From the NCBI RefSeq assembly GCF_001548055.1, contig NZ_AP014724.1, positions 372,001 to 436,000 of the forward strand: a stretch of DNA of 64,000 nucleotides, in the 5' to 3' direction. Both the position numbers and the translations under genes were made by a program. Position 1 is the stretch's first letter; every line of letters starts with the position of its first letter. Of this stretch, positions 21,090 through 34,417 are shown one piece after another. Source of the DNA: Sulfurospirillum cavolei (GTDB taxonomy: Bacteria > Campylobacterota > Campylobacteria > Campylobacterales > Sulfurospirillaceae). A model generated the notes under the pieces. It had not been told where the DNA came from and made no database searches. It worked only from the letters and a program-made list of their open reading frames with translations.

Positions 21090-21476
21090 GTGGGTAAAAA
21101 AGTCATTTTAGTAGATGATTCTAAAACGATTCTTGCAACGGCACAGATGGCTCTTGAAGAGATGATCGGGCGAGGAACGATTCAGTTTACGACGTACCTT
21201 AATCCCGCGGAACTGCTTGACGCCCTTTTAAACGGCAGAGAAGATTACGATCTTTTAATCAGCGATATCAACATGGCACAAATGAGCGGACTTGATCTTG
21301 CAGCCGAGCTTAAATCTCACGATAAATTTAAAAACAGACCCATTCTTATTTTGACAACGGAAAGTTCTCCGGACATGAAGGCTCGCGGTAAGGCTATTGG
21401 GGTGACGGGGTGGATGGTAAAGCCTTTTAGCGACGATAAGCTCATCAAAGCAATTACGATGGTATTAGGACTGTAA
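21090..21476 (+). CDS. CheY-like single-domain response regulator, first gene of the chemosensory cluster
   Basis: 128 residues, receiver only. Acidic pair D9-D10, phospho-acceptor D59 (L-L-I-S-D-I-N-M), a T-T-E-S switch residue and K in M-V-K-P-F are present. The GTG at 21090 sits 5 bases after AAAGGAG; the frame is open a further seven codons upstream. It stands 2 bases before cheW, so it belongs to the same operon. Such small receivers take phosphate from CheA; the output partner (motor or kinase or cyclase) is unknown. Confidence 0.88.
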   Translation: MGKKVILVDDSKTILATAQMALEEMIGRGTIQFTTYLNPAELLDALLNGREDYDLLISDINMAQMSGLDLAAELKSHDKFKNRPILILTTESSPDMKARGKAIGVTGWMVKPFSDDKLIKAITMVLGL

Positions 21477-21478
21477 AT

Positions 21479-21970
21479 ATGGAAGAGAAGCATGCTAAAG
21501 GAGTCGGACTAACCGCTAATCGGTTTCTGACGTTTTATTTACAAGAGGAAATATACGGTGTCAATATTTTTGACGTAAAAGAGATCATCGCGATGATGAA
21601 AACGACTCCCGTACCGAAAACGCCGCATTTTATTAAAGGCGTTATGAACCTTCGCGGAAATATTATCCCCGTCGTGGATATGCGTATCAAATTTGATATG
21701 CCCGAAATTGAACCTCACATGTACACTTCTATCGTGATTATTACGATCGACGGAAAGAACATAGGTTTTATCGTCGACAAGGTTGAAGAAGTCGTGAACG
21801 TAGACGATGAAAATATCTCTTTACCTCCGGAATTCGGATCCAACGTGGATACGAAATTTATTAAAAATATGGCAAAACAGAAAAATAAAGTCATTATGAT
21901 TTTGGATTTAGTAGCTCTTTTCGGCGAAGACGAATTGGGTGTCGTACAAGCATTAAGTAAAACTGCGTAG
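21479..21970 (+). CDS. cheW: CheW-type coupling protein
   Basis: 163 residues, a single CheW domain: L-T-F-Y-L-Q-E-E-I-Y-G-V-N-I start, T-P-V-P-K-T-P-H-F-I-K-G-V-M-N-L-R-G and I-P-V-V-D-M-R binding surface. It links the MCP at 21990 to CheA at 24339. A different CheW is expected for the housekeeping chemotaxis system (cheVAW elsewhere in such genomes), so this copy probably serves the array encoded here. Confidence 0.93.
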   Translation: MEEKHAKGVGLTANRFLTFYLQEEIYGVNIFDVKEIIAMMKTTPVPKTPHFIKGVMNLRGNIIPVVDMRIKFDMPEIEPHMYTSIVIITIDGKNIGFIVDKVEEVVNVDDENISLPPEFGSNVDTKFIKNMAKQKNKVIMILDLVALFGEDELGVVQALSKTA

Positions 21971-21989
21971 CACTATAAAAGGATAGGGG

Positions 21990-23987
21990 ATGAATAAGAC
22001 TATGACATTGGGCAAAAGAATTTCTATCGGATTCGGTATTTTATTGTTCATTACGTTGGCGTTAGGTATTTTGGCTATTGTCAATATGCGTAATGCTTCT
22101 CAAGATTCCGCAAAACTTGCAGAAGTTTATGCTCCGGAAGTTGAAATAGCGAGTAAGATTTTTGCATCAGCCAATCAAATTCGTTACGATGTTCGCGCTT
22201 TTACCATGCAGGACAATGAACAGTCTCTTGCAAATGCCAAAAAAGAGTTTATTAACCTTCAAAAATATTTGAACGAAGCGCAAGTTCACGGGAAAAAATA
22301 CCATTTAACCAATTTGATTGAAGGCGAACAAAAAGCTTCAAAAAGCACTTTAGAATATATCGCATCGAATGATCGTTCCGAAAAACTTTTAGAGCGTAAA
22401 AAACAGTATGACGCCGCGATGGTTGAAAATGCAACGCTTTTTATGAAAAATGCTTCTAAATACCTCGATAATCAAGAGAGTAAACTTAAAGAAGAGATTA
22501 ACACGAAGCAAGACGGTGCAAAATTGGTATCACGTCTTACTAAAATAAGCCATATTAACGAAGTCATCGATCTTGCGCACAATACACGCGTCTTAGGTCA
22601 GCGTGCGCAACTCAAACGGGATTTGAAAATGCTTGAAAATGCCGTCGCCTCTTTCGATGCCATCTATAAATTATTAACCGAAATCAAAGCCAATACCGTT
22701 CAAGCTAATAATCTTGAAGATTTAAAGAACATTGAAAATGCCGCTAAAGTTTACGAATCTTCCTTAAAAGGAATGATAAGCGTTATGCAAGAAACCGCAA
22801 CGGAAAATGCGATTCGCGTGAAAGCCGCCGCCGATGTTTTAGATGCGGCGTCTTCTGTGATGCAACTGGGCGTCGGCAATACGAAAGAAGTTTCCGATAA
22901 TGCTTCCGATTCTTTAAGCGTTGCCTCCGTCGTGATGCTCATAGGTTTGGTTATTGCCGTTATCATCAGTCTTTTAACCGCAGTGTTCATTATTCGTAGT
23001 ATCGTCAAAGTCGTCGTCGAATCCGTGAAGTCGCTCTCTGAAGGTACGACGCAAGTCGTGAGTGCCAGCGAGCAGATCAGCTCGGCGTCGGTTTCTTTAG
23101 CAGAGGGTGCAAGTTCGCAAGCCAGTAGCGTCGAAGAAGTCAGCGCGACGATCGAACAAGCCACTGCGAGCAACAATCAAAACGCGGAAAATTCACGCGA
23201 AGCGAACATCTTGGCGCAACACTCTAACGATGCGGCAAAAGAGGGCAATCAACGTGTTCAAGATCTTATGGTCGCGATGGAAAAAATTACCGATTCTTCA
23301 CAAAAAATTGCCAAAATCATTAAAACAATCGACGAGATTGCGTTTCAAACCAATCTTTTAGCACTTAATGCCGCCGTAGAAGCCGCGCGTGCGGGCGAAC
23401 ACGGTCTTGGTTTTGCCGTCGTCGCCGAAGAAGTTAAGAATTTGGCGGAACGCAGTGCGGGTGCCGCTAAAGAGATTACGGGTATTATCGAAGCAAGTAT
23501 CGATCAAGTCAAAGCCGGAACCGAAGTTGCCAATAAAACGAAAGAGTCGTTTACCGAAATCCTCAACGGCATCAAAAAGACGTCGGACTTGATCGGAGAG
23601 ATTGCGATTTCCGCCAAAGAACAAGCCGAGGGAATGAACCAAATCGCAACGGCGATGGGATCGGTCGATCAGATTACCCAACAAAACGCTTCCGCGTCTG
23701 AAGAGACGGCGGCGGCAGCCGAAGAACTCAACGCACAAGCGTTGGCAATGCTTCAAAGCGTTGCGGAAATGGCGGCTTTAGCCGGGTTTGATATGGGTAA
23801 AGATTCGCCTCGTCCAAGTTTAGCGAGCACAACAAAACGTCTTTCACCGGTTGTTCCCGCGCCGAAACGTTTGTCGGTTGCTTCCGGTGCAAAAAAAGCT
23901 AAAACGCCTTCCTTTTCGCAAACCGCCTCCAAGCGTAGTAATGAAGATGTCTTTCCTTTAGGCGAAGACGATCTAAAAGAGTTTTAA
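21990..23987 (+). CDS. Methyl-accepting chemotaxis protein with HBM-like sensor
   Basis: 665 residues. Helix 1 at about 12-32, a ~270-residue all-helical periplasmic domain resembling the helical bimodular (HBM) fold, helix 2 at about 308-338, then a signalling domain. The hairpin tip is intact (E-I-A-F-Q-T-N-L-L-A-L-N-A-A-V-E-A-A-R-A-G). A classical HAMP after helix 2 is not clear. The last residues E-D-D-L-K-E-F lack the W-x-x-F tether motif but resemble the tail of the kinase at 27222. HBM domains sense organic acids in other bacteria; the ligand is unknown. GGATAGGGG precedes the ATG. Confidence 0.92.
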   Translation: MNKTMTLGKRISIGFGILLFITLALGILAIVNMRNASQDSAKLAEVYAPEVEIASKIFASANQIRYDVRAFTMQDNEQSLANAKKEFINLQKYLNEAQVHGKKYHLTNLIEGEQKASKSTLEYIASNDRSEKLLERKKQYDAAMVENATLFMKNASKYLDNQESKLKEEINTKQDGAKLVSRLTKISHINEVIDLAHNTRVLGQRAQLKRDLKMLENAVASFDAIYKLLTEIKANTVQANNLEDLKNIENAAKVYESSLKGMISVMQETATENAIRVKAAADVLDAASSVMQLGVGNTKEVSDNASDSLSVASVVMLIGLVIAVIISLLTAVFIIRSIVKVVVESVKSLSEGTTQVVSASEQISSASVSLAEGASSQASSVEEVSATIEQATASNNQNAENSREANILAQHSNDAAKEGNQRVQDLMVAMEKITDSSQKIAKIIKTIDEIAFQTNLLALNAAVEAARAGEHGLGFAVVAEEVKNLAERSAGAAKEITGIIEASIDQVKAGTEVANKTKESFTEILNGIKKTSDLIGEIAISAKEQAEGMNQIATAMGSVDQITQQNASASEETAAAAEELNAQALAMLQSVAEMAALAGFDMGKDSPRPSLASTTKRLSPVVPAPKRLSVASGAKKAKTPSFSQTASKRSNEDVFPLGEDDLKEF

Positions 23988-24076
23988 ACAAAAAACTCTT
24001 TTTTCCGTACGAAAAAGTGCTGCATCAAAAGTGACATGTAGTGCATTGTGTACCAAGCTTGTAAGAAGGGTAGGAT

Positions 24077-24346
24077 ATGTGTATAGACGGTGATGTACTG
24101 GAGCTTGATTTTGATATGGATTTGGAAGAGATCAAAGCTCTGACGCTTTTTGTCAAAGACCGATTAGCCTATATTGAAGAGATTGTGATTTTCCCTTCCA
24201 AAGAAGGCTTACCGACGAGCTCTTCTTTATGGGCACTTTTATGGTGCTTGAAACAGGAAAAACCGAGCCTTAAAATCGATGCAATCGATAAAATACCTTT
24301 AGACTTGGGTGTTTTCGGTACGCTTTATTGGAACAGCCATGAGTAA
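24077..24346 (+). CDS. Small STAS-like protein in the chemosensory cluster
   Basis: 89 residues with the alternating pattern of a STAS (anti-sigma antagonist-like) fold: an acidic beta start, I-E-E-I-V-I-F strand, P-T-S-S-S-L-W-A-L-L helix where the phosphorylated serine would sit, and a final D-L-G-V-F-G-T-L. Sequence support is moderate because the domain is short. STAS proteins are carried by several alternative chemosensory operons. It overlaps cheA by 8 bases (ATGAGTAA). A possible substrate for the SpoIIE phosphatase/kinase at 45314. Confidence 0.6.
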   Translation: MCIDGDVLELDFDMDLEEIKALTLFVKDRLAYIEEIVIFPSKEGLPTSSSLWALLWCLKQEKPSLKIDAIDKIPLDLGVFGTLYWNSHE

Positions 24347-26396
24347 AGAAAAACTAAAACAGATTTTTATCGAAGAAGCAAACGATATTATCGAAAAGAT
24401 GGATATCGATATTTTAAATTACGAAGAGTCGCCGAGTAATAAAGCCCTTTTAAATGAAATTTTTCGAGGCGTTCATACCTTAAAAGGGAGTGCTAACGCG
24501 TTTAATTTTTCGCGTCTTGGGGAGTTTGTGCATCATTTCGAAGATGTTTTAGACTTTTTTAGAAGTTCCGATATAACGCCGAGCGCAAGCCACGTCGATC
24601 TTTTTTTGGAAAGCGTCAACCTGATCAAAGAGACGCTTGAGTTTGAAATTTCGGAGCGTAGCGGTCATCCCGAGGGTTACGAAGCATGCCTCAATCAAAT
24701 CCAAAAGATTATTTCGACGTTGAAAACGACTCCCGAACCCGCACAAGCGACAATAACATGTAACGATCTTGCGCAAGAGTTCGGTAATGAGATTTTTGAC
24801 GAACCGATGCCGGTTCAACGCCCTGATGAAGCATCTTTTTTTGAACGACTTGAGGGTGAAGAAACGCTTTATACGATTATTCTAACGTTGGATAGCGATA
24901 TCTATTTACGCGGATTCGACCACTTTTTATTTTTCAAAAATCTTTCACATGTCGGGCGCATTTTGGCCTCTTTTTGGAGTCCGATCGACACATGTACGCT
25001 AGAGACGTTTGATAGCGAATACAATTACTTTAGGCAAGTCGAGATTATGTACGCGACCCAAAGTTCGCAAGCGCAAATCGAAGAGATTTTTGATTTTTTA
25101 GAGCCGCAGGAGTACCGTATCGTTGCTACACCAAGACCTACCGTCGCGCAACCGATACTAAACGTCGTTTCTGAGGAGCCTGTAGAAGTCGCAAGTGTGC
25201 CTCTTGCCAAAGAGGAAAACAAAGAGATCAAAGCCGCATTGGTTCAAAAAACGTTTTTAAAAATCGATGCGCAAAAGCTCGACGAGTTGTTCGATTCGAT
25301 CGGAGAGTTGGTTATTGCTCAAAATTATCTGGGCGAAAACGGGAAAATTAAAGCGGTACGCGATGCCGAAGTCACAAAGACCATCGAAAACCTTTCAAAA
25401 ATTACCAAATTGATCCAAAATCGGGTTATGTCGTTACGTATGATCCCGATTCGCGATACGTTTGAAAAGATGAAACGCGTCGTGCGCGATTCTTCGAAAA
25501 AAGTCGGAAAACCGATACACCTCGTTCTTCAGGGCGAAGATACCGAGATCGATAAAACGATGGTGGAAGCACTTTCCGATCCTTTGATTCATATTATTCG
25601 CAACTCGATCGACCACGGGATCGAAACGAACGTCGAAGAACGCCGCAAAGCGGGCAAAAGCGATGAGGGTATCGTGACGCTCAGTGCATACCATCGAGGC
25701 GGCAATATTATCATCGAAGTCAAAGACGACGGTCGAGGCATCAATAAAGAAAAAGTGTACCAAAAAGCCTTGGAGAGAGGTTTGGTAAAACCCGAAGACG
25801 AACTCAACGAGGCACAGATTTACAACTTGATTATGCAACCCGGATTTTCGACGGCGGACGTCATCAGCGATCTTTCGGGGCGCGGCGTTGGACTTGACGT
25901 TGTTCGTACGGCGATTGAAAGCGTTCGCGGAAAAGTGGAAATCTCTTCCGTTCCGAATCAAGGCAGTACGTTTCTGATTATCTTGCCTTTAACGTTAGCG
26001 ATTATCGACGGTATGATTGTACGTTCGAGCGAAAAGATTTTTATTATCCCGACGTTGTGTATTATCGAGTCGTTTCGACCTGCCGAGGATGAAGTCCATG
26101 TTGCCGGCAGTAAAGAAGAGTTCGTGCAACTCCGATCGGAGCTTTTACCGATCGTTCGCTTAAACAGAGTGCTTGAACTCGACACTCAAAAGCCGAATGC
26201 GTGGGAATCTACCTTAGTGTGTATCGAAAACCAAAAAGGTAAATTCGCTTTATTGGTCGATGAATTGGTCGGTCGTCAGCAAGTCGTCATTAAGACTTTG
26301 GGAGAATTTTTCGCTAAAACGGAAGGCGTCAGCGGAGGTGCCGTTATGGGTAACGGCGAGGTGGCATTGATTTTAAATGTTGAAGAGTTGTATTAA
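24339..26396 (+). CDS. cheA: CheA histidine kinase of the accessory chemosensory system
   Basis: 685 residues from ATG 24339. HPt with H46 in V-H-T-L-K-G-S-A-N; a middle domain of about 110 residues like the P2-type region of many CheA proteins (Y-T-I-I-L-T-L-D-S-D-I-Y-L-R-G); P3 dimerisation helices with M-S-L-R-M-I-P-I; HATPase with D-P-L-I-H-I-I-R-N-S-I-D-H-G-I-E, D-D-G-R-G-I and G-R-G-V-G-L-D-V-V; C-terminal CheW domain. No receiver is fused, whereas the housekeeping CheA of Campylobacterota usually ends in one, which marks this as a different class. Autophosphorylates and supplies CheY and CheB. ATG-stop overlaps on both sides. Confidence 0.95.
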   Translation: MSKEKLKQIFIEEANDIIEKMDIDILNYEESPSNKALLNEIFRGVHTLKGSANAFNFSRLGEFVHHFEDVLDFFRSSDITPSASHVDLFLESVNLIKETLEFEISERSGHPEGYEACLNQIQKIISTLKTTPEPAQATITCNDLAQEFGNEIFDEPMPVQRPDEASFFERLEGEETLYTIILTLDSDIYLRGFDHFLFFKNLSHVGRILASFWSPIDTCTLETFDSEYNYFRQVEIMYATQSSQAQIEEIFDFLEPQEYRIVATPRPTVAQPILNVVSEEPVEVASVPLAKEENKEIKAALVQKTFLKIDAQKLDELFDSIGELVIAQNYLGENGKIKAVRDAEVTKTIENLSKITKLIQNRVMSLRMIPIRDTFEKMKRVVRDSSKKVGKPIHLVLQGEDTEIDKTMVEALSDPLIHIIRNSIDHGIETNVEERRKAGKSDEGIVTLSAYHRGGNIIIEVKDDGRGINKEKVYQKALERGLVKPEDELNEAQIYNLIMQPGFSTADVISDLSGRGVGLDVVRTAIESVRGKVEISSVPNQGSTFLIILPLTLAIIDGMIVRSSEKIFIIPTLCIIESFRPAEDEVHVAGSKEEFVQLRSELLPIVRLNRVLELDTQKPNAWESTLVCIENQKGKFALLVDELVGRQQVVIKTLGEFFAKTEGVSGGAVMGNGEVALILNVEELY

Positions 26397-27217
26397 TGAG
26401 CAATTTGGTGCTCAGCCAAAAAGAGTTTACGCTTTTTCAACACTATATTTATGACCATTTAGGGATTAATTTAGGCGCACAAAAAATCTACTTGGTGCAA
26501 GCGCGCCTTGCCAAACGCGTAAAACAGCTTGGTTTAGTCAGTTTTAAAGAGTATTACGATCGTTTGTGTAACGATACGAGCGGGGAAGAGTTTGCGTACC
26601 TCTCCTCGTTGATTTCGACGAACGTGACCTCTTTTTTTCGCGAAGCCAAACAGTGGGAGTTTTTAAAAACGTACAGTGCCGCACTTGCGGAACATCCGGC
26701 TAAAAAGCTACGCATTTGGTCGGCGGCGTGTTCTAGCGGCGAAGAGCCCTATAGCCTTGCGATGTTCTTAGATACGCATTTAGCCAAAAGCGGTGCGTGG
26801 GATATTAAAATTTTAGCGACGGACGTGTCGCCGCGCGTTTTAAAAGCGGCGCAAACGGGAACGTATACGCAAAAAGCATGTGCAGGGATCGATCCTAGTT
26901 TGCTACAACGTTATTTTACGTACGAAGCGCAAACGCAGTCGTTTAGGATAAACGAACGTTTAAAGTCTATGATAACGTTTCGCGAGTACAACTTGGTGAC
27001 GGGAAATTACGCTCTTTTTAAAGAAGGGATGTTCGATATTATCTTTTGCCGCAACGTTATGATCTATTTTGATAAGCCTACGCAAGAACAATTGGTTAAA
27101 AAATTTCATACGCTTCTTACGAAAGAGGGGTATTTGTTTATCGGAAGTTCCGAAGCCCTTACCGATATGAAACAAGGCTTTAAATCTAAAGGGGCTTCAA
27201 TTTATCAGAAGGTGTAA
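26396..27217 (+). CDS. cheR: CheR chemoreceptor methyltransferase
   Basis: 273 residues: N-terminal helical CheR domain, then a SAM-binding fold with W-S-A-A-C-S-S-G-E-E-P-Y-S-L-A and later D-I-I-F-C-R-N-V-M-I-Y-F. It methylates receptor glutamates with S-adenosylmethionine. No TPR tail. Start overlaps the cheA stop by one base (TAATG). With CheB and CheD in the same operon it supplies adaptation to the array. Confidence 0.95.
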   Translation: MSNLVLSQKEFTLFQHYIYDHLGINLGAQKIYLVQARLAKRVKQLGLVSFKEYYDRLCNDTSGEEFAYLSSLISTNVTSFFREAKQWEFLKTYSAALAEHPAKKLRIWSAACSSGEEPYSLAMFLDTHLAKSGAWDIKILATDVSPRVLKAAQTGTYTQKACAGIDPSLLQRYFTYEAQTQSFRINERLKSMITFREYNLVTGNYALFKEGMFDIIFCRNVMIYFDKPTQEQLVKKFHTLLTKEGYLFIGSSEALTDMKQGFKSKGASIYQKV

Positions 27218-27221
27218 GACG

Positions 27222-28112
27222 ATGATGGACGATATAAGCGATGCGCGGTTATTGGCAGAAGTTAAAAAACGCTTCGAGCAAAAAAACGAGACGCTCAAAG
27301 AGTTGGAATTTTTAACCAAAAAACTCTACGACCTCAATGAAAAGCTACGTGAAACCGATAAAGTTAAAGGCGAATTTCTTTCATTAATTAAAAATGTTTT
27401 CAACAATCCGATCGGCTCGCTTCTCAATCTTTCGTCCATGATGTTGAAAAACGATGATTCGCCGCGTACGCAAAGCATGAAACTTTTGTTGGACGTAGAG
27501 CTTCAAAAACTCAATTTTCAGCTCGGGAATATTTTTACCGCCGCCGAGATTGAAGCAGGCGAGATCGGAAGCCATTTGAGCAGCGTAGACATTGATATGC
27601 TTTTTGAAGAAGTGTGTAAACTTTTGGGCTACTTGATCGAAGATAAATCCTTACATGTCGTTAAAAAAATCGAAATGCCGAGCAAAATCGTTAGCGATGC
27701 CAAGAAGTTGCACACGATTTTAATGAACTTGGTTTCCAATGCCTGCGAATATTCGTTTCGCGGAAATACCGTTTCGTTTCGAGCCTACATTCAAGACGAT
27801 ACCGTCGTCATGGAGATCAGCAATACCGGAGACGTCATTGCCAAAGAGCATAAAAAAGAGGTCTTTAATCGCTTTAAAAAAGTCGATAAACAAAGCCGAG
27901 CGCGCGAATCGGTCGACGGATTGGGGCTGGGCTTAAGCGTCGTTAATGCCTTGGTCGAATCGCTGGAAGGTTCGATCGATTACGACTCTTCCGAAGCGTT
28001 GACGGTTTTTAAAGTGGCATTGAAGCTTCAAGAAGCAAGTGCTTCGGAGTCGGTTGCGAGCGAGAGTGCCAATGAGTTTATGTTTGACGATTTCGAGATG
28101 AAAGAGTTTTAA
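27222..28112 (+). CDS. Histidine kinase-like protein lacking the phospho-acceptor histidine
   Basis: 296 residues, soluble. A coiled coil (about 10-50) leads into a HisKA-like helix pair, but the H box reads F-L-S-L-I-K-N-V-F-N-N-P-I (52-64), with N58 where F-L-S-x-x-S-H-E-L-R-T-P has histidine. The ATPase part is better kept: N box I-L-M-N-L-V-S-N-A-C-E-Y-S, I-S-N-T-G-D-V-I, F box V-F-N-R-F and G2 D-G-L-G-L-G-L-S-V-V. It therefore cannot autophosphorylate in the usual way; it may act as a scaffold, ATP sensor, phosphatase or allosteric partner of CheA or the kinase at 29605. The tail (D-D-F-E-M-K-E-F) resembles that of the MCP. Confidence 0.85.
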   Translation: MMDDISDARLLAEVKKRFEQKNETLKELEFLTKKLYDLNEKLRETDKVKGEFLSLIKNVFNNPIGSLLNLSSMMLKNDDSPRTQSMKLLLDVELQKLNFQLGNIFTAAEIEAGEIGSHLSSVDIDMLFEEVCKLLGYLIEDKSLHVVKKIEMPSKIVSDAKKLHTILMNLVSNACEYSFRGNTVSFRAYIQDDTVVMEISNTGDVIAKEHKKEVFNRFKKVDKQSRARESVDGLGLGLSVVNALVESLEGSIDYDSSEALTVFKVALKLQEASASESVASESANEFMFDDFEMKEF

Positions 28113-28582
28113 TGCTACCGCGTAAGTTTATCCATGTCGGTGAGATTTTCATAGGAGTCGAAGCTACGGAAATCGTCACGGTACTTGGATCGTGCGTTGC
28201 GGTATGCCTTTACGATAGGGTTACGATGATCGGCGGAATGAACCATTATTTACTGCCTTTGTGGAACGGAAACGGTTTGGAAAGCCCGAAATTCGGAAAT
28301 ATCGCAATACCGAGGCTTCTAGAAACGATGGAAAATATCGGGTGTTTGCGCCGCAATATCGAAGCGAAGATTTTCGGCGGAGCTAATATTCACGTTGCCA
28401 ATAGCGAAGCGCAAATGATCGGGCACAAAAACGTTATGATTGCTAAAGAGACGTTACGATCGCTCGGCATTCCCATTAAAGCCGAAGATACGGGCGGAAA
28501 TAACGGAAGGCGCATTATGATGATCAGCGATGCCAATCGTATTATGCTCAAATACGTTCAAAACGAGATCATGCATGATTAA
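28112..28582 (+). CDS. cheD: CheD chemoreceptor glutamine deamidase
   Basis: 156 residues with V-L-G-S-C-V-A-V-C-L-Y-D (catalytic cysteine), G-G-M-N-H-Y-L-L-P (catalytic histidine) and A-K-I-F-G-G-A-N. It deamidates receptor glutamines and in Bacillus is bound by CheC, which is also encoded here (33439). Start overlaps the previous stop by one base; its end overlaps cheB by 8 bases. Confidence 0.94.
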   Translation: MLPRKFIHVGEIFIGVEATEIVTVLGSCVAVCLYDRVTMIGGMNHYLLPLWNGNGLESPKFGNIAIPRLLETMENIGCLRRNIEAKIFGGANIHVANSEAQMIGHKNVMIAKETLRSLGIPIKAEDTGGNNGRRIMMISDANRIMLKYVQNEIMHD

Positions 28583-29600
28583 AGTTCTTATCGTGGACGA
28601 CAGTGCCACGGCACGCCATATTTTACAAGAGATTTTACAAAGCGATCCGCGTATCGAAGTCGTAGGTCTTGCCGCAGATGCTTATATCGCACGCGATATG
28701 GTCGTCGAAAAACGACCGGACGTGATTTGTTTAGACGTCGAGATGCCGCGAATGGACGGCATTACGTTTCTTCAAAAGCTGATGAACCATATGCCGACAC
28801 CGGTCGTGATGGTCTCTTCGTTGACGCGCAAAAGCGCGCAAGTCACGCTCGATGCTTTGGCGGCTGGTGCCATCGATTATGTGGCTAAACCGCATTCAAA
28901 TATTTACGACGGTAAAGAAGAGATTCGAGAAGAATTGATTCAAAAAGTCGTCGATGCATCGTACGCAAAATTGCGTCAAATCGTACCGCTTAAACGGGTG
29001 ATCGCGAATCAACTCAGCATTGCGGAGACGACGAAAAAAGTCATTGCTATCGGCTCAAGTACGGGAGGTACGGAGGCTTTGAAAGTCGTCTTAAGAGGGC
29101 TGCCTAAAAATTCTCCGGCAGTCATTATCGTGCAACATATGCCCGATACGTTCATTGCTACGTTTGCGGCACGCCTGAGCGAATTGTGCGCTATCGACGT
29201 TAAAGTAGCGCAAAACGGAGCTTTTTTGGAAATCGGTACGGCTTACGTTGCACGCGGAGGATTGCACATGGTGTTGCGTCGTTCGGGAGCACGTTATTAC
29301 GTCGAAATCGGAGAAGGTCGCAAAATCAACGGGCATTGTCCGAGCGTCGACGTGATGTTCAATTCCGTTGCGAAAGTGGCCGGAGCCAATGCGATCGGAG
29401 TGATTTTAACCGGTATGGGAAACGACGGGGCAAAAGGGATGCTTCATATGCATCAAAACGGTGCTAAAACAATTGCCCAGTCTGAAGAGAGTTGCGTCGT
29501 GTTCGGTATGCCAAGAGAGGCTATCAAACTAAGAGGCGTCGATGCCGTCGTACCGCTTGAAGAAATTTCGCAATCGGTCTTAAGCTTTTTGGAGACATAG
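28575..29600 (+). CDS. cheB: CheB methylesterase with receiver domain
   Basis: 341 residues from ATG 28575. Receiver with D54 in I-C-L-D-V-E-M-P-R-M-D-G, a linker, then the esterase with G-S-S-T-G-G-T-E-A (Ser), V-Q-H-M-P (His) and T-G-M-G-N-D-G-A (Asp). It removes methyl groups from the receptor when phosphorylated by CheA. A full receiver-containing CheB also differs from the receiver-less CheB of Campylobacter jejuni, again pointing to a separate system. Confidence 0.95.
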   Translation: MIKVLIVDDSATARHILQEILQSDPRIEVVGLAADAYIARDMVVEKRPDVICLDVEMPRMDGITFLQKLMNHMPTPVVMVSSLTRKSAQVTLDALAAGAIDYVAKPHSNIYDGKEEIREELIQKVVDASYAKLRQIVPLKRVIANQLSIAETTKKVIAIGSSTGGTEALKVVLRGLPKNSPAVIIVQHMPDTFIATFAARLSELCAIDVKVAQNGAFLEIGTAYVARGGLHMVLRRSGARYYVEIGEGRKINGHCPSVDVMFNSVAKVAGANAIGVILTGMGNDGAKGMLHMHQNGAKTIAQSEESCVVFGMPREAIKLRGVDAVVPLEEISQSVLSFLET

Positions 29601-29604
29601 CACC

Positions 29605-31137
29605 ATGGAAGCTTCCGTCTTACACACGCATAACGTATCGTTGAATATTTTAGTGATCGGTGAGATGGTAGCGCATCAAGAACTTTTACATGTCGCTTCG
29701 TTGACGCACCATCGTTTCTATTGGGAAACCGATGCCGCGTCGATTTTTGAGTTGGCTTCGCACACGCGCTTCGATCTTATCTTCGGTACGATTTCGTATC
29801 AAGGAACGTCCTATTTCTCGACGCTTCAGAGCATCAAACAACACAATCTCGATCTTGCGATCATCATCTTTATAAGTCCCGAGGATGCATTTAATTTGAA
29901 TGAAGTCTTGATGTTGCAATGCGAACGTTATTTGTGTTTGGAAACGGAAAAAGACAAAGCGGCGGTACATCTTAAATCTGCCATCCAAGAGTTGTCGCAA
30001 AGCGACATTTTTTTAAGCGATATGCAGTATTTTGAAGCACTCTTGGACGCTTCGATCGTATCGCAATCGGATACGGAAGGCAATATTACCTACATTAACG
30101 ATAATTTTACCAAAGTCACCGGATATACTCCCGCCGAGGTTATCGGGAAAAACCATCGTATTTTACGCCATCCCGCTAACGGTACGGAAATTTATCAAGA
30201 CATGTGGAGAACGATTACGCAAGGGAAAGTGTGGCGAGAGCGGGTTTTAAATAAAAATAAAGACGGTAGTGATTTTTGGGGCGATACGATTATTATCCCT
30301 TTTAAAGACACGCATACCGGAAAAATCGTACAATACTTAGCGGTCAGGCAGGACATTACGCAGATGCTGCTTGAAAAGCGCGCCGTGCAGGCGCAGGAAA
30401 AACAAGCGCAAGAACAGATGAAACTTTCCGAAGCCAAAGACGCTTTTTTGATTTTATTTACGCATGAATTAAAGACGCCGCTCAATGCCATTATGAACTT
30501 TTCGCAATACCTGTACAAGCATATGCCGAATATTGAAGAGATTCCCAAAGAAAAGCGGATGCATCTTTTGGAGCAAATTTACAAAAGCGCGCATTCAATG
30601 TTGGAAAACGTGAGCAATATTTTAGATTTGGGCAAGCTTCGCCATCAAAAGTTGCACTACAATCTGACGTTTTTTAACGCTAAAGAGAGCATTTTAGACG
30701 TGATCGAAAAACACGGTGCCTTGGCGTTAGAATATCATCGCACGATGGTATTTCATAGCGACGATAGCGAGCCGTTTTTGAGCAGCGACGAGTATCGCTT
30801 TAAGCAAATACTCTCCAACGTTCTCTCCAACGCGATTAAATACGGTACGTCGACCGTCGAGATCACGCTCTCTTCGAGCAAGGAGACTCTCGTAATTACG
30901 ATCGAAGACGACGGTAAAGGTATCCGAGATCAAGATAAAGAAGAAGTTTTTGAGCTGTACAATCAAAGTGCTTCTAAACCGAGTAGCATGGAAAAAAAGG
31001 GGACGGGTATCGGACTTCATTTTGTGAAATTGTTATGCGAAGGCTTAGGCTTTGAGTATCGCTTAGAGGATTCCGCGCACTTAGGCGGCGTCAAATTTAG
31101 TTTAACGAAACGATTAAAGGAGCCAAAATATGTATAA
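29605..31137 (+). CDS. Soluble PAS histidine kinase with degenerate N-terminal receiver-like domain
   Basis: 510 residues. Residues 12-130 look like a receiver fold without acid pocket: the phospho-acceptor position in F-D-L-I-F-G-T-I is T62 and no T/S-K-P motif is seen. A PAS domain (about 145-255) carries the aerotaxis-like motif D-x-x-G-N-I-T-Y-I-N-D-N-F and G-K-N-H-R-I-L-R-H-P. A coiled coil, HisKA with H287 (T-H-E-L-K-T-P-L) and HATPase (D-D-G-K-G-I; G-T-G-I-G-L) follow. The PAS motif resembles FAD- or redox-type Aer PAS domains, so a redox signal is likely. It overlaps the next regulator by 8 bases. Confidence 0.88.
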   Translation: MEASVLHTHNVSLNILVIGEMVAHQELLHVASLTHHRFYWETDAASIFELASHTRFDLIFGTISYQGTSYFSTLQSIKQHNLDLAIIIFISPEDAFNLNEVLMLQCERYLCLETEKDKAAVHLKSAIQELSQSDIFLSDMQYFEALLDASIVSQSDTEGNITYINDNFTKVTGYTPAEVIGKNHRILRHPANGTEIYQDMWRTITQGKVWRERVLNKNKDGSDFWGDTIIIPFKDTHTGKIVQYLAVRQDITQMLLEKRAVQAQEKQAQEQMKLSEAKDAFLILFTHELKTPLNAIMNFSQYLYKHMPNIEEIPKEKRMHLLEQIYKSAHSMLENVSNILDLGKLRHQKLHYNLTFFNAKESILDVIEKHGALALEYHRTMVFHSDDSEPFLSSDEYRFKQILSNVLSNAIKYGTSTVEITLSSSKETLVITIEDDGKGIRDQDKEEVFELYNQSASKPSSMEKKGTGIGLHFVKLLCEGLGFEYRLEDSAHLGGVKFSLTKRLKEPKYV

Positions 31138-32416
31138 AATATTGATCGTCGACGATAACGATAACAACCGTTTAACGCTCAATCTCTTACTCGAAGAGGT
31201 TGAAGAAATAGAAATACAAGAAGCCGAAGACGGGCAAGTTGCCGTTGAAATGTGCGTCAAAAATCATTTTGATTTGATTTTTATGGATATTATGATGCCC
31301 AATTTAGACGGTTTTGAGGCAACGCGTTACATCAAACAAGTCGACAAAAAAACGATGATTATCGCCTTAAGTGCTTTAGACGACGAGACCTCCAAGCACA
31401 AAATGCTCGCTTTGGGAGCGGAAGATTATCTCACAAAGCCTTTGTATTCGGAACATTTTTTACAACGCGTCAAACAGTATTTACGCATTATCGAATTTCG
31501 TAAGCAAGAACTTCGCAAAAATCAGCGCGCGATCAATCCTTTCAACAGTCGCGTTTTTCACCGTACGATCACGTTTCGCATCGATAGCGAAGAAGCATTA
31601 AGCGAATTTTGGGACTATTGGCTCAATGCTCCTAAAAATATTATCGATTTAAGCGATTGCGTACGTCTCTTTTTCGGTTTTTGTTTATGGCTCACGCACC
31701 GTGATTTTGAAAGTACGATCATCGTCGAAGAAAACGAAGATAAACTCTTTATGATGCTCTTACATGTAAGGCCGTTAAAGAGTGCGGTGATTAAAAATAT
31801 TTTCTTAAAACACTTTTCCAACGCCAAATATATTTTAAGTCAAGATATGCTTTCGATCCAACTCGATAAGGGGCGCATCGAAGAGAAACTGAGCGTTTCG
31901 AGCTTGAGCGAAGAGGCTCAAAAAATTCTCTCAAAAACACACGACGATGTTTTAAGCGCGCAAGATTATGTCCAGTCGACCGCTATTTCGCTTATGCCGA
32001 AAATTGATGCGCTTGAAGCACTCAACGAGGAAACGGACAGTGCCATTTTGGCGTTTGAAAAAGAGCCGAGCAAACAACGTTTGGCAATTATTTACGAGAA
32101 TCTTCAAGAGTACGCCGACGTTCTTGCCGAATTAATGGCGTTTGAACACTTGGGATTTGCGGTTCAGACCTTGATTAATTTTTTGAGCACTTTAACCGAA
32201 GATCAATTTGAGAGTGAAAAAATCAAGCGACTCTCAACGATGCTTTTTAGCCTTTTAAGCGATTTGGCTTCATGGCGCGAAAATGTTTTTATTACGCAAG
32301 TCGCACGCGATATCCACTATTTAGACTCTTCGCTTTTAAGCTCGTGTTTGCAAATAGAGGCTATTTTTGAAGAGAAAGGCTCCGTAACGGATGATGACGA
32401 AATCGAATTTTTTTAA
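31130..32416 (+). CDS. Response regulator with unrecognised ~300-residue output region
   Basis: 428 residues. Receiver 1-120 is complete (D8-D9, D53 in F-M-D-I-M-M-P, S81, K103 in L-T-K-P-L). Residues 125-428 match no output domain I know: no helix-turn-helix, GGDEF, EAL, HD-GYP or phosphatase motif. The part around 140-240 has beta strands and aromatic residues (F-W-D-Y-W; C-L-W-L-T-H-R-D-F-E); the rest is mostly helical and might be HPt- or four-helix-bundle-like. The end is acidic (D-D-D-E-I-E-F-F). The PAS kinase upstream is the obvious phosphodonor. It converges with the GGDEF gene, overlapping by 4 bases. Confidence 0.85.
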   Translation: MYKILIVDDNDNNRLTLNLLLEEVEEIEIQEAEDGQVAVEMCVKNHFDLIFMDIMMPNLDGFEATRYIKQVDKKTMIIALSALDDETSKHKMLALGAEDYLTKPLYSEHFLQRVKQYLRIIEFRKQELRKNQRAINPFNSRVFHRTITFRIDSEEALSEFWDYWLNAPKNIIDLSDCVRLFFGFCLWLTHRDFESTIIVEENEDKLFMMLLHVRPLKSAVIKNIFLKHFSNAKYILSQDMLSIQLDKGRIEEKLSVSSLSEEAQKILSKTHDDVLSAQDYVQSTAISLMPKIDALEALNEETDSAILAFEKEPSKQRLAIIYENLQEYADVLAELMAFEHLGFAVQTLINFLSTLTEDQFESEKIKRLSTMLFSLLSDLASWRENVFITQVARDIHYLDSSLLSSCLQIEAIFEEKGSVTDDDEIEFF

Positions 32417-33435
32417 AGTTTAGAAGGCGCAAAGACTTTGTAGGTATTGCGTCCGGCCGATTTGGCTTCGTAAAGAGCCACGTCGGCACTTTTAATAAGC
32501 TGATTGAAATCTTTACCGTGATCGGGGAAGAGGCTGATGCCGATACTCGTCGTAACGCCGATGTCCATATGATGCACGCGAATGGGTTGTTGTAAGTTTG
32601 TGACCAGTTTGGAAGCGATATGGCGTAGCACCTCCTCACTTTCGATGTCGTCAACCAAAATAATAAATTCATCGCCCCCGAAACGTGCTACCGTATCGGT
32701 TTTTCGCGTGGCAAGCAACAAGGTTTTTGCAACGTTAATTAAAATCATATCGCCGATGTCGTGCCCTAAGGAGTCGTTGATCTCTTTAAAATTATCAAGG
32801 TCTAAAAAGAGAACGCCGAATTTCTTACCGCTTGCTAGATTGCTTTCGATAAGAAGTTGCAGACGTTGATGCAGAAGCGTTCGATTGGCAAGCGAAGTAA
32901 GGTGGTCGTAGTGGGCTTGCTTATAGATCATGTCTTGTTGTTTGACCAGTTTATTACGTGCCGTTTCCAACTTTCGAATCGTTGCATTAGCTATTTTGAC
33001 TGCTCTTGCAAGCTCGGCACTCTCTTTGTTGCACTTACTTTTTTCTTCCATCAACGTCGTTTGATCGTAAATCAACATCGTAACGATTTTTTGTTCTAAA
33101 TCGTAAGGGACGATCGTAACGTCTTGTTGCATAAACTCAAATGCCGATTTGATCGTCATCGAGTGTTGCATTGCTAAGAGATAACCGTTGGCGTCGGCGG
33201 TAAAAAAAGAGGGACTATGAAGCGTGAGCGCGGCTTTGATATGGCGTTTGAGCGATTTGAGTTTTTCTTCCGGAATGTCAAAAACGCTTAAGAGGTTTTG
33301 TCCTTGAGCCTCATCGGGCTGAATATTGCTATGTACCGCTACCCATTTGTTGATGTAATGGATCGTTAAATTGGCATCGACGGTAATGATCCCGACGTTG
33401 ATCGAGTCGATGAGGGTTTCGTAATGAATAGACAT
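32413..33435 (-). CDS. Soluble PAS-GGDEF diguanylate cyclase linked to the chemosensory cluster
   Basis: 340 residues: PAS (about 5-120), a coiled coil (125-165), then GGDEF with R-F-G-G-D-E-F-I-I-L and an inhibitory-site R-K-T-D five residues before it. Substrate-binding D-L-D-N-F-K-E-I-N-D-S-L-G-H-D is intact, so cyclic-di-GMP synthesis with feedback inhibition is expected. Third gene of the run cheY - cheC - this gene (gap 3 bases), which ties second-messenger output to the chemosensory proteins. No receiver of its own. Confidence 0.92.
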   Translation of the reverse strand: MSIHYETLIDSINVGIITVDANLTIHYINKWVAVHSNIQPDEAQGQNLLSVFDIPEEKLKSLKRHIKAALTLHSPSFFTADANGYLLAMQHSMTIKSAFEFMQQDVTIVPYDLEQKIVTMLIYDQTTLMEEKSKCNKESAELARAVKIANATIRKLETARNKLVKQQDMIYKQAHYDHLTSLANRTLLHQRLQLLIESNLASGKKFGVLFLDLDNFKEINDSLGHDIGDMILINVAKTLLLATRKTDTVARFGGDEFIILVDDIESEEVLRHIASKLVTNLQQPIRVHHMDIGVTTSIGISLFPDHGKDFNQLIKSADVALYEAKSAGRNTYKVFAPSKL

Positions 33436-33438
33436 AGC

Positions 33439-34035
33439 TTACAGTTGGTCGATAGTTTGTTTGAGCTGCTCGAGCATCTCATTATTAAGAAGAATGAACA
33501 TGTGACCTAAGATATTCTCTTTTTCGATGTCCAAAGCCGTTTTAATGACGATCACGTTGTCGTAACCTTCGATTTTATCGTATTTATCCATTTCCAAGAC
33601 GTCGCGTTTTTCAATCGAAGGAACTTTGAAAATCGTTTCTCCGTGAATAATTTCGCAAAATTTACCGATACATGCGGACGTGATGATATTGGTCAGCTCT
33701 AAAATCGACGACTTAATATCGTTATCGTCGCACGTTGCTTGTTGGAGCAATAGATGCGTAAAAACATGCGCGGAATAAGGATTGAACACAAACAAAACTT
33801 CACCGTTAAACGAGCCTAAAAAGCGTTGTTTCGTAAGGTAAAATTCATTTTCTCTTCCTAAGACTTCGATGATTTTACCGTTAAGGTTCAAAATATCGAT
33901 ACTGGAGATTTCGGGAAGGTGCAACTTGGCATAATTGTCCAGCATATCTCCGATTAACGATGCCGCAAGTCCGAAAGAGACGTTAATCAACTCTTTTAAA
34001 ATATCTTCTTGTTGAGCGCTAAAGTGTTGTACCAT
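33439..34035 (-). CDS. CheC/CheX-family CheY-P phosphatase
   Basis: 198 residues with two copies of the family active-site helix: D-I-L-K-E-L-I-N-V-S-F-G near residue 12 and I-L-E-L-T-N-I-I-T-S near 108, each with the E-x-x-N pair needed for dephosphorylation. It should hydrolyse aspartyl phosphate on the CheY beside it, and, as in Bacillus, may bind CheD (28112). The gap to cheY is one base. Confidence 0.87.
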   Translation of the reverse strand: MVQHFSAQQEDILKELINVSFGLAASLIGDMLDNYAKLHLPEISSIDILNLNGKIIEVLGRENEFYLTKQRFLGSFNGEVLFVFNPYSAHVFTHLLLQQATCDDNDIKSSILELTNIITSACIGKFCEIIHGETIFKVPSIEKRDVLEMDKYDKIEGYDNVIVIKTALDIEKENILGHMFILLNNEMLEQLKQTIDQL

Positions 34036-34036
34036 G

Positions 34037-34417
34037 TTAAAAAACCAATTTTAAAAGCGTTGAGCGAAACTCTTCCGCATCGATCGGTTTGGAGAGAATC
34101 GCAGAAGCACCTAAAGCTAAAGTCTTTTCTTTGGTGCTTTTTTGTCGGTCGGCCGAAATCATAACGACCAAAGCCTCATTATTAGCGGCACGAATCTGTA
34201 GAAGAGCCTCAAATCCGTCTAAGATCGGCATCGTAATATCGAGAAAAACGATATCGGGAGCGTATTGTTTAAAAAGTGCTACGGCTTCTTCGCCGTTTTC
34301 GGCTTCGATAATTTGCGTGTACTCGGCAATTTTTTTAGGGATCATTTCAATAAGCCATTTACGTGAAATTTTTGAATCGTCCACGACTAAAAAAATCATT
34401 TTTTCCGATAAACTCAT
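34037..34417 (-). CDS. CheY-like response regulator paired with CheC
   Basis: 126 residues, receiver only: D13-D14, D60 in I-V-F-L-D-I-T-M-P, S-A switch region and K in L-S-K-P-I-D. First gene of the three-gene minus-strand operon. An AT-rich leader (34418-34478) holds a TATTAT -10-like sequence. Different from the CheY at 21090, so the system has two free receivers plus the receivers of CheB and the 31130 protein competing for phosphate. Confidence 0.9.
   Translation of the reverse strand: MSLSEKMIFLVVDDSKISRKWLIEMIPKKIAEYTQIIEAENGEEAVALFKQYAPDIVFLDITMPILDGFEALLQIRAANNEALVVMISADRQKSTKEKTLALGASAILSKPIDAEEFRSTLLKLVF

Follow-up and report, generated by a model that had tools for sequence, protein, structure and literature searches.

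The window analysed here, a stretch of 64 kb, is part of the complete 2.70 Mb genome of Sulfurospirillum cavolei. Eleven closely packed genes, all of them open frames, occupy positions 21090-32416 of its + strand and are spaced by -8 to +19 bases, except for 89 bases located 5′ of the STAS-like gene. The first gene encodes RR1 (21090..21476), a single-domain CheY-like receiver (Pfam Response_reg; residue map against E. coli CheY), whose start is most likely the GTG codon at 21090 because homologs in relatives are about 128 aa long. It is followed by a CheW coupling protein (21479..21970; Pfam CheW, 124.5 bits) and by a transmembrane chemoreceptor (21990..23987; Pfam MCPsignal) that apparently carries no HAMP domain, the methylation helix coming directly after TM2. 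This receptor had initially been annotated as HBM-type; the Pfam HBM match of 20.8 bits is below the 29.8 cut-off and we describe the sensor as HBM-like only. The next genes encode the small STAS-like protein S (24077..24346), CheA (24339..26396; Pfam Hpt, dimerisation, HATPase and CheW domains), CheR (26396..27217; Pfam), whose pentapeptide-binding loop region has 2 residues fewer than that of E. coli CheR, and the histidine-kinase-like protein HK1 (27222..28112). CheD (28112..28582; Pfam CheD, 85 bits) lacks the C-terminal extension of proteobacterial CheD, as judged by tail comparison. The operon ends with CheB (28575..29600; Pfam), the kinase HK2 (29605..31137) and the response regulator RR2 (31130..32416).

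Three genes of the - strand (34417-32413) converge on this operon. They encode CheY2 (34037..34417), a single receiver by Pfam, paired with a CheC/CheX-type CheY-P phosphatase (33439..34035; Pfam CheX, 27.9 bits) in which two ExxN motifs were found by eye, and a PAS-GGDEF diguanylate cyclase (32413..33435; Pfam) with GGDEF and RxxD motifs, also found by eye. The RR2 and GGDEF genes overlap stop-to-stop by 4 bases. Beyond the N-terminal receiver of CheB, Pfam recognises three further receivers across the locus. Open frames and Pfam domains thus agree with the initial annotation of an operon converging with cheY-cheC-PAS-GGDEF, and Pfam likewise confirms a receiver-less CheA and a receiver-bearing CheB. 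Promoter and terminator scans of the locus gave no excess over shuffles. Base composition was considered as a signal of recent transfer and rejected, the profile being flat.

Chemosensory class and its conservation

The initial annotation had proposed a chemosensory class separate from the housekeeping cheVAW system, with class assignment of CheA and of the receptor as its check. The receptor aligns without gaps with E. coli Tar over 230 columns and with Tsr over about 250 columns, and is therefore of the 36H type. By comparison, 34H control receptors from other Campylobacterota clusters give -7/-7, with seven residues missing on each side of the hairpin. An initial 34H/F8 guess, based on Pfam match length, was rejected by these gapless alignments. 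In the published key (PMC9321776), 36H corresponds to F7 and 34H to F8. In a 27-row tree, CheA falls in a 20-row clade together with the E. coli, Vibrio F7 and Arcobacter-like CheA (support 93/87), and the Campylobacterota subclade that contains it has a support of 100/100. The F3 CheA and the 34H CheAs (100/99) are outside the F7 clade, in a tree that is limited by some long branches. As in F7 systems, cheY, cheA, cheW, cheR, cheD and cheB all lie in a single cluster and CheB bears a receiver. The receiver-less CheA and receiver-bearing CheB are at odds with F3, in which CheA ends in a receiver, cheV is its neighbour and CheB has no receiver; a receptor that is not 34H and a CheA outside the F8 clade are at odds with F8. 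The operon is therefore not the housekeeping F3 system, because of its 36H receptor, the grouping of its CheA with F7 kinases and its gene order; receptor and CheA both fall outside the cheVAW class and into F7, as the separate-class proposal had predicted.

The genome contains two CheA genes, the second being a receiver-bearing F3 CheA within a complete cheVAW set (G000:C1, 2.53 Mb). A third CheW-domain gene was considered as a third CheA and rejected. Located outside the window (G000:C1, about 1.5536-1.5561 Mb; L051:8634-11144), it encodes an 836-aa protein in which Cache sensor domains are joined to CheW at the C-terminus. This sensor-adaptor fusion has no CheA with it and adjoins two nitrogenase-component-1-like genes.

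HK1 orthologs, defined by a score >160 bits, were found in 27 of 298 genomes of the phylum, including all 13 of the genus, and 26 of these 27 genomes also have a CheA relative of the operon type. Sulfurospirillum and another family share the core order RR1-CheW-MCP-S-CheA-CheR-HK1-CheD-CheB, apart from insertions; RR2 is encoded downstream in the former and upstream in the latter. Gene order, which the initial annotation had singled out for comparison, is thus retained in the genus and in other Campylobacterota. Single genomes depart from this layout. HK1 is interrupted by an insert of about 1 kb in G056 (L102) and CheA is frameshifted in G234 (L109), in both cases through recent decay or assembly error. 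Contig C11 of G200 (L097) encodes an MCP, two CheW, CheR, a receiver, an HK1-like pseudokinase, CheD, CheB and an RR2-like protein; no CheA was seen on this contig.

An 'F7_Sulfurospirillum' gene order, common to Sulfuricurvum and Sulfurimonas, is described in PMC9321776 and PMC9239204; the gene-order key, which covers the five classes known from the phylum, includes the symbols K (kinase) and S (STAS). The operon fits this published type in genus, 36H receptor, single cluster and the K and S genes, so that its class is known and already reported in sulfur-cycling Campylobacterota. Horizontal acquisition of the type is proposed by the authors of PMC9239204. Among gammaproteobacterial F7 systems (P. 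aeruginosa Che2, V. cholerae, S. oneidensis Che1; PMC7184735, PMC9855816), the CheA clade, the 36H receptor and CheD/CheB/CheR are alike, as are a conserved non-aromatic McpA tail and the presence of a REC-anti-sigma regulator near the Shewanella and Vibrio clusters. However, their receptor is of the cytoplasmic Aer2 type and HK1 is absent.

HK1, HK2, RR2 and the S protein

Alignment of 32 HK1 orthologs revealed that the phospho-acceptor site is occupied by Asn (28), Ser (3) or Tyr (1) and never by His; the residue is Asn58 in the protein encoded here. In the same alignment, HK2 has the acceptor His. HK1 retains the N-box and the G2 box. Its G1 Asp is missing from the Sulfurospirillum proteins (NxGDVI) and present in several distant orthologs (DxGEGI). 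A profile search with HK1 matched solved histidine kinases, among them DivL (4q20). DivL of Caulobacter has a histidine-kinase fold without the phospho-acceptor His. HK1 is similar in this respect, but Pfam finds neither a membrane nor a PAS part in it, its orthologs carry mostly Asn at the site and it belongs to a chemosensory operon. Judged from these residues, HK1 is a conserved pseudokinase. The K gene product is presented as a histidine kinase in the F7_Sulfurospirillum text (PMC9321776, PMC9239204). No earlier report of pseudokinases in chemosensory systems was found in the open-access literature.

HK2 comprises a degenerate receiver, a PAS domain, a HisKA domain with an intact His and a HATPase domain (Pfam; alignment). 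Its His, N, G1 and G2 boxes are intact (THELKTP, SNAIKYG, EDDGKGI and GTGIGL, respectively). The N-terminal receiver has decayed and lacks the Asp acceptor here, whereas it is intact in a distant relative (L017). Two extra kinases had been announced at this locus. By its motifs HK2 should be able to autophosphorylate; HK1 is kinase-like by profile, as first described, but lacks the acceptor His in 32 of 32 orthologs, so that only one of the two would autophosphorylate.

RR2 has an intact receiver, and residues 135-428 have no Pfam match. The non-receiver part was modelled alone from 31 sequences (pLDDT 78.6). In this model, residues ~139-248 matched the anti-sigma kinases RsbW, SpoIIAB and UsfX (Z 7.5-9.2), an alpha/beta fold. 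For residues ~282-414, the top four matches were CheA P1 domains (Z 11.6-13.0, up to 131 aligned residues), a type of helical bundle that scores high by chance. ATP motifs, and an acceptor His at the equivalent site of the bundle, were looked for by eye in RR2 and none was seen. RR2 may therefore combine a receiver with an RsbW-like fold and with a bundle of the CheA-P1 type, the latter two apparently without catalytic residues; the predicted assignment is tentative because helical bundles give high scores by chance. Comparison of RR2 with CheA, CrsR-like proteins and the Vibrio response regulator using hhalign gave nothing convincing, and when the model of the entire RR2 served as query for a structure search, all matches were to receivers.

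The partner-switch regulators CrsR and HsbR (PMC6482189) also join a receiver to an RsbW-like fold, and the operon likewise has an S/STAS-labelled gene. These regulators are made of REC, SpoIIE phosphatase and HATPase_c_2 domains, whereas RR2 is only REC by Pfam, its RsbW-like fold being predicted by the model only. Moreover, RR2 has neither the SpoIIE phosphatase nor visible ATP-binding motifs, and has the CheA-P1-like bundle instead; the PP2C and active kinase domains of Shewanella CrsR are a further difference. The S. oneidensis F7 locus (che1) encodes CrsR, with an anti-sigma domain, and its antagonist CrsA; the Vibrio F7 cluster contains a gene for a REC-SpoIIE-HATPase_c_2 protein as well as one labelled STAS. 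To our knowledge, Campylobacterota have no RpoS, and therefore the CrsR analogy cannot transfer whole.

A single Ser of the S protein is invariant and lies in a motif of the form x-S-[SA]-L. The initial name 'STAS-like' matches the published label S; yet no match to STAS families was found in Pfam or the PDB, and hhalign against STAS proteins gave nothing convincing. CheS of rhizobia (PMC12654446), which binds CheA, is also a small STAS-labelled protein of a che cluster, but the S protein has no detectable sequence similarity to the Phaeobacter STAS protein tested.

CheY2, the diguanylate cyclase and the flagellar switch

In the map against E. coli CheY, no phosphorylation residue is missing from RR1 or CheY2. 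At the FliM-contact positions W58, K91 and K119, a criterion taken from PMC9321776, they carry I, S/Q and A/T. These substitutions bear on whether the array additionally feeds swimming chemotaxis, either by cross-talk to the CheY of the F3 system or by way of its own RR1. Control of the motor has passed to F7 systems in E. coli and, probably, in Arcobacter (PMC7184735, PMC9321776). Here, however, RR1 and CheY2 lack the FliM-contact residues, the genome has a complete F3 cheVAW set with a receiver-bearing CheA, and the cluster has a single cognate 36H receptor, the other receptors of the genome that were tested never aligning with Tar without gaps. We regard a swimming input as quite improbable.

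The initial annotation had also coupled the array to diguanylate cyclase activity. CheA would phosphorylate CheY2, CheC would dephosphorylate it and CheY2-P would steer the adjacent PAS-GGDEF protein. In 12 of the 13 genus genomes cheY-cheC-GGDEF adjoins the operon and converges with it, the GGDEF motif is intact, and F6/F8 kinases of P. syringae bind WspR (PMC11253619). However, the GGDEF protein carries no receiver, and each of the two units occurs without the other. Twelve genomes have a CheC match without HK1, with the GGDEF neighbour present in the two that were inspected (G129, G265), and eight have HK1 but no match to CheC. The module of G239 remains beside mnmA-like and dnaG genes, about 15 kb from the operon. 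The coupling is weakened because cheY-cheC-GGDEF is an independent module. A cyclic-di-GMP output is a weakly supported possibility to which linkage gives no support, and control of the cyclase along the above route seems unlikely.

C-terminal tails and a proposed F7 array

Three unrelated proteins of the operon have acidic-hydrophobic ends: the receptor (EDDLKEF), HK1 (EMKEF) and RR2 (DDDEIEFF). In sets that include near-identical species, D-L-[KR]-E-F is found in 32/32 receptors, E at -2 in 39/39 HK1 and E at -3 with F at -1 in 33/33 RR2, E-x-F being invariant in the latter. By comparison, residues -17 to -40 of the receptor and HK1 are only 14-23% identical. A genome-wide scan for DNA encoding [DE]-phi-[KE]-E-F-stop gave two sites, the ends of the receptor and of HK1, and [DE]-phi-E-[LF]-F-stop is found at real gene ends only in RR2 and one orphan RR2 paralog. 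Strict covariation of the HK1 and receptor tails was looked for and not found: in another family, the tail of HK1 has drifted to AIEL and the receptor still ends in DLKEF, so that tail identity between proteins is not strict.

Related ends were found in other chemosensory clusters. In the Vibrio cluster the receptor ends in EWEEF, an McpA-like protein in EVELF and CheD in DVELF, so that the tail is on CheD there and on HK1 and RR2 here instead. CheD ends in VELF, VTLF or IEFF in other proteobacterial clusters (L133, L136, L139-L145), resembling the RR2 tail, and in IELF in the Arcobacter-like cluster. No earlier report of CheD tails was found in the open-access literature. The McpA tail of P. 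aeruginosa, with Val at the aromatic position, is bound by 0/4 CheR and its conservation is unexplained (PMC7184735).

The receptor tail could be an ordinary CheR/CheB tether which the HK1 and RR2 ends resemble by chance: xWxxF tethers are frequent at the ends of 36H receptors, and short acidic-hydrophobic ends evolve easily. However, the receptor end does not match the CheR tether -x-[HFYW]-x(2)-[HFYW], Leu and not an aromatic residue being at position 2 in 32/32. Conservation of the HK1 and RR2 tails beyond variable linkers, the genome-wide uniqueness of the tail patterns and the VELF-type ends on CheD and McpA-like receptors of other clusters also argue against chance, and we hold this explanation to be rather doubtful. 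Tentatively, and short of thinking it probable, we propose that F7 arrays use one putative docking code at C-termini, acidic-phi-[KE]-[EFL]-F, on receptors and soluble auxiliaries (in Campylobacterota HK1 and RR2, in Proteobacteria CheD). The code would bring the dead kinase to the array together with an anti-sigma-like regulator that is linked to a receiver, and output would pass through recruited adaptors, not through a diffusing CheY.

Sequence comparison establishes the F7 class, the conserved gene order, the absence of the catalytic histidine from HK1 and the conserved tails on receptor, HK1 and RR2. The best explanation, which we consider on balance probable, is a complete accessory F7 array with a non-flagellar, adaptor-type output and tail-recruited HK1 and RR2. 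One 36H receptor, CheW, CheA, CheR, CheD, CheB and CheY (RR1) would form the array. CheA would phosphorylate RR1, CheB and the RR2 receiver, into which HK2 would feed as well. The tails would bring HK1 and RR2 to the array via a common docking site on CheR/CheB or another component, where HK1 may act as a non-catalytic, DivL-like modulator. The response would be of the adaptor type, through RR1 and RR2 and not the flagellar switch; the RsbW-like domain of RR2 may retain a partner or let it go, by analogy with CrsR of the Shewanella F7 system and HsbR of the P. aeruginosa HptB pathway.

The core operon claim of the initial annotation is right but known; the HK1 pseudokinase, the docking-like tail common to receptor, HK1 and RR2, and the predicted RR2 architecture are new here and add to the F7_Sulfurospirillum description in the available parts of PMC9321776 and PMC9239204. 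What F7 arrays control outside the enterics is named as an open question in PMC7184735 and PMC9239204, as is the role of the conserved McpA tail. RR2 is a candidate for the output, comparable to CrsR at the Shewanella F7 locus. A tail common to receptor, pseudokinase, RR2 and CheD provides a testable binding hypothesis, also for the conserved McpA tail. If true, recruited pseudo-enzymes would join the repertoire of chemosensory arrays.

Similar ends were also observed outside F7 clusters. The orphan RR2-like protein (L156:6891-7802; G000:C1:2393893-2394402) has the bundle half only, ends in EEELEFF and lies outside che clusters. Azospirillum has orphan CheD genes with a VELF/VTLF/IEFF-type motif near the end. 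Finally, 34H (F8-type) clusters elsewhere (L164, L165; one of them in a Sulfurospirillum, G228) encode unknown proteins ending in DVEFF, DTLEFF or DLIFF.
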